Below are positions 13,315 through 17,049 of a stretch of DNA of 35,464 bases, piece after piece. The notes under the pieces are model-generated. The model ran no database searches and was not told the DNA's origin. It worked only from the letters and a program-made list of their open reading frames with translations. Made by a program: the position numbers and the translations under genes. The number at the start of each line of letters is the position of its first letter. Positions within the stretch are counted from its first letter, which is position 1. Source of the DNA: Candidatus Falkowbacteria bacterium S5_I03 (GTDB taxonomy: Bacteria > Patescibacteriota > Patescibacteriia > Patescibacteriales > UBA12465); contig JAEHGX010000011.1 of assembly GCA_019248265.1 (NCBI GenBank), positions 1 to 35,464 of the forward strand, read 5' to 3'.

Positions 13315-13343
13315 AAAACTTGGTAAATAATAAGAGTAAATTT

Positions 13344-14309
13344 ATGTTTTATCCCTTGCAATTATTGGCCAACTATTTAACTTACTCTGTTTTTAATATT
13401 TCCGCGGATTCCTTATTAGGCCAGGCGCTTAATTTTTTTATTTTTGATACTTTAAAAATATTTATTTTGTTGTTTGTTATCATTTTTTTAGTCTCCTTTA
13501 TCAGGACTTATCTGCCGCCTCATAAGGTTCGCTCATTTATCGCCAATAAAAATAAACTAACCGGCCATATTTTAGCTTCATTGTTAGGGATTGTGACTCC
13601 GTTTTGTTCCTGTTCGGCCGTGCCTTTATTTTTAGGATTTGTGGAAGCGGGTGTGCCACTCGGGGTTACTCTCTCTTTTTTGATTTCCTCACCGATGATT
13701 AACGAAGTCGCCTTGGTTCTATTGTTCGGTTTATTCGGTTGGAAAATATCTTTACTTTATGTTTTAAGCGGTTTGCTTATTGCCATTATTTCTGGTTTAT
13801 TAATTGGTCGCTTGAAAGTTGAGAATTTGGTGGCTGATTTTGTTTGGCAGAATAAACTGCAGACAAATAATACCCCTGAAATTAAAAAGAGCCGCCAAGA
13901 AAGAATTAACTATGCTTTAGGCTACACTCTAGATATTTTCCGGCGCGTTTGGTTGTTTGTTGTTATTGGTGTCGCGATTGGCGCCTGGATTCACGGTTAT
14001 GTCCCTGCTAATTTTTTGGTTTCCTATGCTGGCGCTAATAATTGGTATGCCGTGCCGCTAGCGACGCTAATTGGCATTCCATTATATTCTAATGCGGCCG
14101 GAATTATCCCTTTAGTTAGCGCTTTAACCGAAAAAGGCTTGGCTTTGGGCACGACCTTAGCTTTTATGATGGCAGTGACTGCTTTGTCTCTTCCGGAATT
14201 TATGATTCTGAAGAAAGTTATGAAGACTAAATTGATTATTATTTTTGCGACCGTCGTCGGCCTGGGCATTATGTTCATTGGTTATCTATTTAATTTTATT
14301 TTGAAATAG
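13344..14309 (+). CDS. Permease of the YraQ/ArsP (UPF0718) family
   Basis: This 321-residue multi-pass membrane protein has about eight to ten helices. The family signature TPFCSCSAVPLFLGFVEAGV lies in the first half, followed by PLGVTLSFLISSPMINEVAL. A second related half follows, around GVAIGAWIHGYVPANFLVSY and IPLYSNAAGIIPLV. Some members export trivalent organoarsenicals or take part in metal handling; the substrate here is unknown. I chose the ATG at 13344; an upstream TTG at 13320 is less likely because it directly follows the tRNA terminator. The cysteine pair in the CSCS motif is intact. No ArsR-like regulator or arsenic gene is adjacent. Confidence 0.9.
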   Translation: MFYPLQLLANYLTYSVFNISADSLLGQALNFFIFDTLKIFILLFVIIFLVSFIRTYLPPHKVRSFIANKNKLTGHILASLLGIVTPFCSCSAVPLFLGFVEAGVPLGVTLSFLISSPMINEVALVLLFGLFGWKISLLYVLSGLLIAIISGLLIGRLKVENLVADFVWQNKLQTNNTPEIKKSRQERINYALGYTLDIFRRVWLFVVIGVAIGAWIHGYVPANFLVSYAGANNWYAVPLATLIGIPLYSNAAGIIPLVSALTEKGLALGTTLAFMMAVTALSLPEFMILKKVMKTKLIIIFATVVGLGIMFIGYLFNFILK

Positions 14310-14350
14310 GCCAAAACAATCAGGTGTCATATTATAAAAGGCTTGGGATG

Positions 14351-14359
14351 TGCTATAAT
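14351..14359 (+). promoter_or_regulatory. Extended -10 promoter
   Basis: TGC followed by TATAAT (14354-14359), with no clear -35. It would start transcription near 14366. This makes the ATG at 14387 the right start for the next gene and rules out a start at 14324. Confidence 0.6.
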
Positions 14360-14386
14360 ATAAATATAATTCCTCAGTTAAGTTAT

Positions 14387-14908
14387 ATGGAAGCTCAAGA
14401 AAAAACCATGGTTATTAATAGAATAAATGTCGCCACACTGGCTCAATTTTTAGTTTTATTATCGGCTGCCATTTTTGCGCCTTTAGCTCATAGTCAAATA
14501 ATTACCGGTTCCATAGTTAACGCGACTTTGTTTATTGCCGCCGCGACCTTAGGCTTGGAAGGCGCAATTATGATTGGAATTTTACCGAGTTTTTTTGCGC
14601 TTTTGGCCGGAACTTTGCTGCTACCGCTCGCACCGCTCATTCCGTTTATAATTTTGAGTAATGCAGTCTTGATCATTACTTTTGTTTATTTAAAGAAAGC
14701 TAATTATTGGCTAAAGATGATAGCTGCCGCCAGTTTTAAATTTATTTTTTTATCAGTAATATCTTTAGCGGTTATCAAATTATTGTTTTCTGGCAAGATT
14801 GCGCTGGCCGCCGCCACAATGCTTAGCTGGCCACAGCTTTTAACGGCTTTAATCGGCGGAATTTTGGCTTATGCTGTTTTACAAGGCCGTAATAAATTAT
14901 TAAAATAG
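14387..14908 (+). CDS. ECF transporter S-component-like membrane protein
   Basis: This 173-residue protein has about five or six membrane helices. Gly/Ala/Pro-rich helices around VNATLFIAAATLGLEGAIMI, LLPLAPLIPFIILSNAVLII and an AASFKFIFLS segment resemble small S-component proteins of ECF vitamin transporters. Relatives in clostridia are often mislabelled iron hydrogenase. The substrate is unknown, and no EcfA or EcfT gene is in view, so it would have to share a remote module or act alone. The start was chosen from the extended -10 promoter upstream. Confidence 0.65.
   Translation: MEAQEKTMVINRINVATLAQFLVLLSAAIFAPLAHSQIITGSIVNATLFIAAATLGLEGAIMIGILPSFFALLAGTLLLPLAPLIPFIILSNAVLIITFVYLKKANYWLKMIAAASFKFIFLSVISLAVIKLLFSGKIALAAATMLSWPQLLTALIGGILAYAVLQGRNKLLK
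14878..14906 (+). promoter_or_regulatory. Promoter of the yhhQ leader
   Basis: -35 TTTACA (14878-14883), a 17-bp spacer and -10 TAAAAT (14901-14906), inside the end of the upstream gene. Transcription would start near 14913, giving a leader of about 157 nt before yhhQ. Confidence 0.6.
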
Positions 14909-14929
14909 TTATGAAAATATGCTAAATAA

Positions 14930-15033
14930 TCATCGCCTGACAACTTGGTCCGGATTTATAGCGAATGGAAGTTTTAACCGATAAGGCGCGGATTGTTTTT
15001 TATTTGCATTCCCGCCTTATCAGCGGGTTTTTT
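14930..15033 (+). ncRNA. Candidate riboswitch leader of yhhQ (unknown class)
   Basis: The segment has the two-state layout of a transcription-terminating riboswitch. State 1: CGCCT (14934-14938) pairs with AGGCG (14984-14988), with an inner helix TTGGT (14945-14949) and ACCGA (14977-14981), leaving the terminator free. State 2: GATAAGGCG (14980-14988) pairs perfectly with CGCCTTATC (15013-15021) and destroys the terminator. The gene controlled imports queuosine precursors, so preQ1, preQ0 or queuine is the natural ligand. The sequence does not match the preQ1-I consensus, and I cannot fit it to preQ1-II; class III was not checked. Confidence 0.6.
15011..15033 (+). terminator. Intrinsic terminator inside the yhhQ leader
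   Basis: Stem CCCGC (15011-15015) with GCGGG (15023-15027), a 7-nt loop (CTTATCA) and six Ts (15028-15033). Its left half is also part of the antiterminator helix. Confidence 0.8.
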
Positions 15034-15069
15034 ATTTGTCTAAATTAGTTTAATAGTTAAATTAAAATT

Positions 15070-15714
15070 ATGGAAAATATTTCCGAGAAACATGTTAAAA
15101 AAATATTAATTGCCCTAGCTTTGTATCTGACCTCGCTTTTGGCAGCCAATACTTTAGGATTGAAAATGATGCCATTCTTTTTTAATTCCCATTTGTCGGT
15201 GGCCGTTTTTTCTTTTCCGATAGTCTTTTTGATAACCGATGTTATTGGAGAAGTTTATGGACGTAAAATTGCTAAGTTATTTGTGCTTGCCGGTTTTATC
15301 AGCACCGCCTTGTTTATTGCTTATTCCTTTTTATCGCTCGCCTTGCCGTGGTCGCCGGATGGGAATTGGCTAAAGGCTGGTTATGGCCAAGTTTTCGGAA
15401 CTTCTATTCGCTTAGCCATCGCTTCTTTGGCCGCTTTTTTGATCGCGGAATATCAGGACGTCTTGTCGTTTTTCTTTTTCAAGGAAAAGATGGGAATAAA
15501 AGTTTTTTGGTTGCGCTCCTTGCTTTCCAATTTGTGGTCGCAATTTTTTGACTCGGCGGTGTTTATGGTAATTGCTTTCGCCGGCATTTATTCGTTTAAA
15601 ACCATGATGAGTATTATTATTTCTTGGTGGCTATTCAAGGTTATTATGGGCGCGCTTTATACGCCCTTATCCTATATTGGTATTTATTTATTAAAAGGGA
15701 AGCAAGTAAAATAA
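15070..15714 (+). CDS. yhhQ: Queuosine precursor transporter (YhhQ/VUT family)
   Basis: This 214-residue integral membrane protein has about six helices. The family marks are AANTLGLKMMPF, SFPIVFLITDVIGEVYGRK and, later, SLLSNLWSQFFDSAVFMVIA. E. coli YhhQ imports preQ0/preQ1, and relatives in pathogens import queuine, to supply the queuosine made at position 34 of GUN-anticodon tRNAs. The gene is preceded by a leader with a conditional terminator and is followed after 1 base by a COG1478 ligase gene, so the two form an operon. No Shine-Dalgarno site is visible. As a reduced-genome organism it probably salvages the base rather than making it; no queuosine biosynthesis gene is in the window. 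Confidence 0.93.
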   Translation: MENISEKHVKKILIALALYLTSLLAANTLGLKMMPFFFNSHLSVAVFSFPIVFLITDVIGEVYGRKIAKLFVLAGFISTALFIAYSFLSLALPWSPDGNWLKAGYGQVFGTSIRLAIASLAAFLIAEYQDVLSFFFFKEKMGIKVFWLRSLLSNLWSQFFDSAVFMVIAFAGIYSFKTMMSIIISWWLFKVIMGALYTPLSYIGIYLLKGKQVK

Positions 15715-15715
15715 T

Positions 15716-16417
15716 ATGATAGTCAAAGCAATCAAAACTAAAATATTTAAAGAGGGTGATAATTTATTTTCTTTTATTGTCCAGCATCTTAAAAAAATTC
15801 CCGAGGACGCAGTCTTAATAGTTACTTCAAAAATTGTTTCTTTGTCTGAAGGGCGAGTCGTTGATTATCAGGGCGAGGCGGCTAAGATTGAGCTTATTAA
15901 ATCAGAAAGCGATTTAGCAATTCCGACCAAATCTGTTTGGCTGACAGTTAAAGATAAGATGGTGATGGCTTCGGCGGGGATAGATGAATCAAACGCGGAC
16001 GGGAAATTAATTTTACTGCCCAAAGATAGTTTTAAAACGGCCTCTATTTTACGTCTCAAATTAAAAAAACAATTTAAGCTTAAACAACTGGGAATAATTA
16101 TCACCGATAGCCGCACCGTTCCTCTCCGAGCGGGAACAACCGGAGTGTCTTTGGGATATGCCGGTCTTCAAGGACTGAAGCAATATCGTGGCCAAAAGGA
16201 TATTTTTGGCCGTAAATTTGAATTTGCTCGCGTGAGTGTTGTCGATAGCTTGGCCGCGGCTGCCGTTTTAGAAATGGGAGAAGGGGATGAGCGTTGCCCG
16301 TTAGCGCTAATTAAAGAGGCATCATTAAAATTCCAAGATCGAATTAACCGGCGGGAATTAGATATCGATTTAGAAGAAGATATGTATGCGCCTTTTTTTG
16401 CTAAGGCGAAAAAATAG
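15716..16417 (+). CDS. COG1478 (CofE-like) gamma-glutamyl ligase family protein
   Basis: The 233-residue protein resembles the F420-0:gamma-glutamyl ligase family. Marks include VLIVTSKIVSLSEGRVVDY near the N-terminus, the central IIITDSRTVPLRAGTTGVSL, and SVVDSLAAAAVLEMGEGDER. CofE adds glutamates to coenzyme F420, but no other F420 gene is here. Family members in Chlamydia act as folate polyglutamate synthases (FolC2), a plausible alternative. It starts 1 base after the yhhQ stop, so it shares the leader-controlled transcript. A role in processing the imported base or a pterin/folate is inference. Confidence 0.8.
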   Translation: MIVKAIKTKIFKEGDNLFSFIVQHLKKIPEDAVLIVTSKIVSLSEGRVVDYQGEAAKIELIKSESDLAIPTKSVWLTVKDKMVMASAGIDESNADGKLILLPKDSFKTASILRLKLKKQFKLKQLGIIITDSRTVPLRAGTTGVSLGYAGLQGLKQYRGQKDIFGRKFEFARVSVVDSLAAAAVLEMGEGDERCPLALIKEASLKFQDRINRRELDIDLEEDMYAPFFAKAKK

Positions 16418-16450: not shown

Positions 16451-16475
16451 AGAGATATGTTAATTAATTCTAACA
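16432..16475. promoter_or_regulatory. Twin 18-bp palindromic operators over the promoter
   Basis: Two sites, each TGTTA-N8-TAACA: 16432-16449 (overlapping the -10) and 16458-16475 (just downstream of the start of transcription). Site 2 read in reverse complement matches site 1 at 15 of 18 positions, and the centres are 26 bp apart. The downstream XRE regulator is the natural ligand, giving autorepression. Confidence 0.7.
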
Positions 16476-16855
16476 TTATGACTATTAAAAAGTATCAACG
16501 TGTCAAGATTGTTATCACCGTTATCTTGGCCGTCATTTTCAGCCAAGCGGTGATTTATAAAAATTATATTATTCCACTCGTAGCCCTGATTGTTGCCTCG
16601 CTGATTCTGCTCTATTTGCGCCGGCAGGTGAAAGAGGTAATTGCCGACGAACGCGATTATGCGATTGCCGGGAAAGCCGCTCTCTGGTCTATCCAGATTT
16701 ATAGTTGGGTAGCTGCCATCTCGATGATTATTCTTTATGCTCTTCGGGATTTAAACCCCGCCTATGAGCCGGTAGCGATGACTTTAGCCTTTTCTACCTG
16801 CGGCTTGATGCTCCTATATTCCGCCATTTTTCGTTATCGCAATCGTTATAAATAA
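16457..16855 (+). CDS. DUF2178-type membrane protein
   Basis: The 132-residue protein has four predicted helices (about 18-32, 37-53, 74-93, 103-124) with an acidic/charged segment between helices 2 and 3 ([20 protein letters not shown]). This resembles small DUF2178 membrane proteins that pair with an XRE regulator. The ATG at 16457 may be read from a leaderless m[13 protein letters not shown] from the ATG at 16478 is the alternative. It is followed after 2 bases by the regulator gene. The role is unknown. Confidence 0.75.
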
Positions 16856-16857
16856 AT

Positions 16858-17049
16858 ATGCAGAATAGGATTAAAGAGTTAAGAGCTAAATTAAATATTA
16901 CCCAAGAAGAATTAGCGCGCCTTGCTGGTGTCCGGCGGGAGACGATTGTCTTCTTGGAGCAAGGGAAATATAACCCTTCTTTAAGCTTGGCTAACGAGGT
17001 TGCCAAAGCTTTAAAAAAGAAGATAACTGAAGTATTTATCTTGGATTAG
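16858..17049 (+). CDS. XRE-family transcriptional regulator
   Basis: This 63-residue helix-turn-helix protein of the Cro/C1 type has the HTH at about residues 12-33 ([20 protein letters not shown]), followed by the family's third and fourth helices ([20 protein letters not shown]). The length matches stand-alone YozG-like regulators without an effector domain. It starts 2 bases after the membrane protein gene and probably represses its own operon through the twin operators. The membrane partner may modulate its activity, but that is inferred. Confidence 0.92.

Follow-up and report, generated by a model that had tools for sequence, protein, structure and literature searches.

A likely leader-peptide attenuator of folate-acquisition and one-carbon genes in Patescibacteria

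Introduction

Which signal controls the yhhQ-family transporter gene of Candidatus Falkowbacteria bacterium S5_I03, and what reads it? The stretch of DNA considered here (the window) comprises 35,464 nucleotides of contig JAEHGX010000011.1, and the intergenic region 14909-15069 lies directly 5' of the transporter gene. The original prediction described this region as a candidate riboswitch of unknown class that controls the uptake of queuosine precursors. We propose instead that it is likely a leader-peptide transcription attenuator of a folate-acquisition and one-carbon regulon in Patescibacteria. As judged from sequence, its identity as a leader-peptide attenuator is close to certain, and folate or one-carbon metabolism is very likely the process under control.

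Results

Locus and gene neighborhood

The regulated gene (15070-15714, forward strand) encodes a transporter of the YhhQ family (Vut_1/TIGR00697), with 131.9 bits for PF02592 and 116.5 bits for TIGR00697, well above the curated cut-off of 50.95. The same protein scores 43.5 against the preQ0/preQ1 equivalog PRK11212, for which 252 is required. It is directly abutted, without a gap, by a gene of the same operon for a CofE-like gamma-glutamyl ligase (15716-16417, forward strand; PF01996, 140.5 bits), whose best NCBIfam name is TIGR04132, 'putative folate metabolism gamma-glutamate ligase' (205 bits, under the cut-off of 350). In 42 of 65 loci a cofE-like gene adjoins A1-type yhhQ and is read from the same strand, whether or not the leader described below is present.

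A candidate promoter (TTTACA-17-TAAAAT, 14878-14906, forward strand), identified by its match to the consensus, ends 12 nt before the start of a short open reading frame (ORF), and the mRNA is therefore predicted to be nearly leaderless. A -10-like box shortly 5' of the ATG of this short ORF is found in 33 of 52 leaders (shuffled sequences: mean 20.7, maximum 29), and a Shine-Dalgarno (SD)-like motif in only four of the 52.

The gene directly 5' of the leader (14324-14908) encodes a membrane protein with a sub-threshold match to ECF_trnsprt (26.5 bits, cut-off 30.7), which may be another uptake component; it is preceded by an ArsP_1 permease gene (13320-14309). Further downstream (16457-17049), the gene for a DUF2178 membrane protein and, after it, one for a small HTH regulator seemingly constitute a two-gene unit without relation to the leader.

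A conserved leader peptide

When the leaders of yhhQ are compared among relatives within the genus and the family, every close one contains a short ORF. In the window this ORF, which the original prediction had overlooked, encodes MLNNHRLTTWSGFIANGSFNR followed by a stop codon (14919-14984, forward strand); with 21 codons (66 nt) it fills the leader. Its core, M-L-x6-T-W-S-[G/S]-F, is shared by 54 distinct leaders across Patescibacteria, with Trp at codon 10 in every one. Codons 9-13 of the window ORF, Thr-Trp-Ser-Gly-Phe (14943-14957, forward strand), are the proposed pause site. The residues T, W, S and F occur in 52 of 52 leaders, a count that is ascertained by the search pattern, which fixed these residues and left the third bases free.

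An independent view is given by the 65 yhhQ loci of a species-level genome set, for which the search required only ATG and TGG and in which T, S, G/S and F are therefore unselected. A leader ORF with constant ATG-TGG spacing is present in 26 of these loci. All 26 start with M-L (or M-I, M-M) and carry T-W-S-[G/S]-F at codons 9-13, the exceptions being one S9 and one C13. The arrangement of an ATG, eight codons (24 nt) and a TGG occurs 30 times 5' of yhhQ, compared with 0-7 times at five other spacings; besides the 26 with the T-W-S-[G/S]-F context, four are chance occurrences.

The third bases within the block are free: all four TCN codons are used for Ser, all four ACN codons for Thr and all four GGN codons for Gly. 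Changes at codons 9, 11, 12 and 13 are almost exclusively synonymous (TCC/TCA/TCT/TCG; ACC/ACT/ACA/ACG) or exchange Gly and Ser. Therefore the peptide is conserved, rather than the RNA. A short ORF that overlaps the switch described below and is conserved at the peptide level, with translation as a prediction, is what is expected of a leader-peptide attenuator.

Antiterminator and terminator

The stop codon of the leader ORF (14982-14984) falls within the 5' arm of an antiterminator, GATAAGGCG (14980-14988, forward strand). This arm is perfectly complementary to a 3' arm, CGCCTTATC (15013-15021, forward strand), which is also part of the stem and loop of an intrinsic terminator (CCCGC-CTTATCA-GCGGG followed by TTTTTT; 15011-15033, forward strand). 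The window leader is more stable than its shuffled counterparts (folding z = -2.18), and the minimum free energy structure of the free leader includes the antiterminator. With all bases up to 14996 hidden, as by a ribosome at the stop codon, the terminator alone is left; hiding the footprint of a ribosome paused at codon 13 yields the antiterminator.

Most leaders combine an intrinsic terminator 3' of the ORF with an arm around the stop codon that pairs with the 5' half and the loop of the terminator. The arm sequences vary (GATAAGGCG, CCCAGGGTG, CAAAGGGT, CGCAGGGC, AAGAAGGCCGG, TGGACAGGTTTTGA), each complementing its own terminator, and in 43 leaders the pairing between own arm and terminator exceeds that of swapped partners (0 of 20000 permutations). 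In an alignment of 27 relatives, made with MAFFT from sequence only and without the use of structure for fitting, the antiterminator helix is 86.6% paired; a shift of 1-3 columns lowers this to 35-53%. Seven of its ten pairs show changes on both sides, and its covariation score is 0.40 versus 0.16 after shuffling (0 of 500). RNAalifold, run unguided on the same 27 leaders, predicts the antiterminator helix and nothing upstream of it. Mutually exclusive, covarying helices and a terminator with a U-tract thus identify a transcription attenuator. The two exclusive folds of the original prediction recur in dozens of relatives, and its proposal of an attenuation leader with OFF-switch logic, built on an antiterminator/terminator pair 5' of a yhhQ-family transporter gene, is borne out.

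In class I leaders the geometry is maintained despite differing tail sequences: measured from F13, the arm starts after 22-30 nt and the stop codon is complete after 18-39 nt. A minority of leaders (L128, L133, L141, L157, L040, L047, L064) have an ORF of 14-15 codons and no standard terminator switch. In several short-ORF leaders the sequence after the stop codon could pair near the main gene start, which is suggestive of a translational version. Scores of SD-sequestering duplexes in short-ORF leaders (L128, L133, L141, L157 and others) are mostly no better than those of shuffled sequences (p 0.03-0.4; for L157 the main gene start was not located).

Distribution and regulon

The 13-codon pattern matches 15 of 380 genomes phylum-wide and 36 of 381 genomes class-wide, and the reversed pattern matches one genome in each set; a few scan matches were chance occurrences inside genes and were removed. 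Hosts of leader-bearing yhhQ loci include Falkow-, Nomura-, Kaiser-, Taylor-, Colwell-, Kerfeld-, Uhr-, Magasanik- and Wildermuthbacteria; such a leader is missing from roughly half of the A1-type yhhQ loci. Among viral contigs (IMG/VR), 93 matches to the pattern were found, none with a convincing arrangement of leader plus gene.

The 54 leaders most often precede yhhQ (29 leaders), in most cases with a cofE-like gene in the locus, which in four of them is followed by the gene for serine hydroxymethyltransferase (SHMT, glyA). Nine leaders precede NlpC/P60 genes and three a cofE-like gene in first position. Three stand before folB (one with folK, one with cofE, one alone) and three before FGase-family genes. 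One leader each is followed by SHMT as the first gene, by a membrane protein-cofE pair and by a GNAT gene; four are without gene assignment or ended by the contig. One type of leader thus precedes several undisputed folate or one-carbon genes, namely folB (three leaders), folK (one), SHMT in first position (one) and the SHMT genes of the four yhhQ-cofE-SHMT operons.

The second most common target is a distinct NlpC/P60 family with an N-terminus like M-E-Y-R-A-V-G-N-R (leaders L123, L136, L137, L140, L145, L147, L152, L157 and L162). This family is perhaps a gamma-glutamyl hydrolase for folates and not a cell-wall enzyme. Our guess is that the NlpC/P60 and FGase enzymes, neither of which is an established folate enzyme, trim the gamma-glutamyl tails of folates. 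In two distant genomes, leaders (L135:1698-1982 and L160:1650-1958) precede similar-looking proteins of about 100 aa with no Pfam match, which may represent a new family of the folate regulon.

Dihydropteroate synthase (DHPS) is found in none of the 111 genomes of the order to which the window belongs, while 13 of 14 control genomes are positive. SHMT is present in 107 of the 111 genomes and methionyl-tRNA formyltransferase (Fmt) in 95. These cells therefore use folates and must import or salvage them. Published Peribacteria genomes likewise have no folate synthesis but retain tetrahydrofolate (THF) enzymes (PMC4736985).

Discussion

Proposed mechanism

The nearly leaderless mRNA would begin with the short ORF, at whose stop codon the 5' arm of the antiterminator competes with the intrinsic terminator. 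On arrival at the stop codon, the ribosome would mask the arm, the terminator would be free to form and yhhQ-cofE would be OFF. With codon 13 in its P site, a ribosome covers about 12-13 nt downstream. The footprint of a ribosome paused at about codons 10-13 would end some 8-10 nt before the arm, the antiterminator could form, and the operon would be ON. Since the paused ribosome leaves the arm free and the ribosome at the stop codon covers it, pausing corresponds to ON and completion to OFF in this scheme. An untranslated class I leader would also be ON, and pausing is therefore not the sole reading of the switch.

The cause of the pause would most likely be the nascent peptide in the exit tunnel, tuned by folate or one-carbon status, with the genes presumably ON when folate is short. 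Considering the conservation pattern and the geometry, we give nascent-chain pausing at T-W-S-[G/S]-F an even chance of being the sensor. It is a more doubtful proposition that the 13-residue peptide itself senses folate or one-carbon status, through the binding of a folate species or through the presence of a formyl group on its Met1. In the former case a folate species might act on the complex of ribosome and peptide, in the way of Trp for TnaC and ornithine for SpeFL, each of which is bound with its peptide in such a complex (PMC8429421). In the latter case the signal might be the formyl group that 10-formyl-THF supplies to Met1; the distance between Met1 and Trp10, nine residues, never varies in the set.

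Alternative explanations

A small-molecule riboswitch, with an aptamer in 14930-14990 that binds a queuosine precursor or a folate and steers the terminator, would also agree with the two exclusive folds and with the position of a vitamin-transporter gene behind them. We consider this very improbable. An Rfam search of the window and 20 related loci returned only tRNAs at the gathering score, and a permissive search (E <= 10) returned no riboswitch; neither the THF riboswitch covariance models nor preQ1-I, II or III gave a match. The original prediction noted that the leader lacks the preQ1-I pattern and could not fit it to preQ1-II. Across the 27 leaders, RNAalifold gives no consensus structure over the columns of the short ORF, and hence no covarying aptamer fold 5' of the antiterminator arm. 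The proposed aptamer helix P1, CGCCT (14934-14938) with AGGCG (14984-14988), is present in the window but does not hold as a structural element: it is missing from the relatives except genome G029, which has a yhhQ 96% identical to that of the window, and the left arm of P1 corresponds to codons 6-7 of the leader ORF. Conservation upstream of the switch is codon-like with free third bases, and the conserved element there is the peptide. The leader-peptide mechanism could also serve a queuosine-precursor regulon in which the folate genes have a secondary place. YhhQ belongs to TIGR00697 and the queuosine enzyme Tgt is present in 99 of the 111 genomes of the order; Tgt is, however, near-universal while the leader is not, and is therefore useless as a discriminator. 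No queuosine gene was found downstream of any of the 54 leaders, and folB, folK, glyA and the cofE-like ligase gene are found instead. This reading is thus unlikely, and the queuosine-specific role originally assigned to the leader is not upheld; with Tgt so widespread, YhhQ itself may nonetheless have a role in queuosine supply.

Two further readings retain the ORF but assign the signal differently. Classical attenuation would rely on ribosomes that slow at the Trp codon, or at His and Asn codons read by queuosine-tRNA, when charged or modified tRNA is scarce. The UGG is indeed invariant, leaders of the 'HNH' type are rich in His and Asn codons, and Tgt occurs in most genomes. Against this, only one Trp codon is present in the leader, which lacks a codon run of the kind found in trp/his-type attenuators, the Thr, Ser, Gly/Ser and Phe around the UGG are equally invariant, and the genes downstream are neither Trp nor queuosine genes. 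The His and Asn codons show no strong NAU bias (57 NAU versus 40 NAC), and NAY codons are absent from six of 52 leaders. We regard classical attenuation as improbable. A similarly small probability is assigned to the sensing of initiation, in which low 10-formyl-THF reduces fMet-tRNA, the short ORF is left uninitiated and the antiterminator turns the operon ON, with the peptide sequence of minor importance. The nearly leaderless start, antitermination as the default of class I leaders without a ribosome and the occurrence of Fmt in most genomes of the order speak for it. It leaves unexplained, however, the strict T-W-S-[G/S]-F at a fixed distance, and if the suggestive pairing near the main start of short-ORF leaders is genuine, their output would be reversed. 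In a very large group of uncultured bacteria, folate-related genes follow this same peptide, and the leader therefore looks like a ribosome-based folate sensor and not like a riboswitch.

Significance

Leader-peptide attenuation is long known as a kind of regulation. Within the open-licence papers searched, we found no description of this peptide, its regulon or its occurrence in the candidate phyla radiation (CPR), nor of any folate leader peptide. If the peptide itself is the sensor of folate or one-carbon status, it would represent an arrest peptide that senses folate and, with respect to the same literature, the first described attenuator peptide of CPR. Regulation in Patescibacteria (CPR) is almost unexplored, and the leader provides a conserved, testable control element common to many lineages. 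It ties a clade of 'queuosine transporters' to folate salvage in bacteria unable to synthesise folate, and membership of the regulon hints at what the NlpC/P60 and FGase genes do.

Comparison with known systems

To our knowledge, bacterial leaders known to sense folate directly do so through RNA aptamers; in the leaders described here, a peptide seems to do this job instead. The THF, THF-II and preQ1-I, II and III riboswitches control folate or queuosine-precursor genes. Their task is similar, but they are RNA aptamers, whereas the window leader has neither an Rfam match nor an aptamer fold. The trpL leader of rhizobia has a leaderless start, comparable to the nearly leaderless one predicted for the window. 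In trp/his-type attenuators and for the Sinorhizobium trpL leader peptide (peTrpL, PMC7298713), the position of the ribosome selects antiterminator or terminator, as proposed for the window. The window leader differs from these in the absence of a regulatory-codon run, in conservation at the level of the peptide rather than of codons, and in having no Trp genes downstream.

Erm leaders are short peptides that act within their first residues. They and the ornithine-dependent SpeFL (arrest peptides, PMC8429421) resemble the window leader in being short and conserved and in being read by the ribosome; they differ from it in their sequences, in the taxa, in the genes that they regulate and in the presumed ligand.

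Trp12 of TnaC, the leader peptide of tnaCAB in E. coli, is essential. TnaC comprises 24 residues and arrests at the stop codon with free L-Trp, and its termination is Rho-dependent. Leaders of the window type, in contrast, have a 13-residue core, an invariant block that lies several codons before the stop codon in most leaders, an intrinsic terminator and folate-related genes. The comparison is one of features rather than of homology, and the features shared by both are a short ORF, a Trp residue and the position of the ribosome setting the readthrough into the operon (PMC8429421, PMC3902921).
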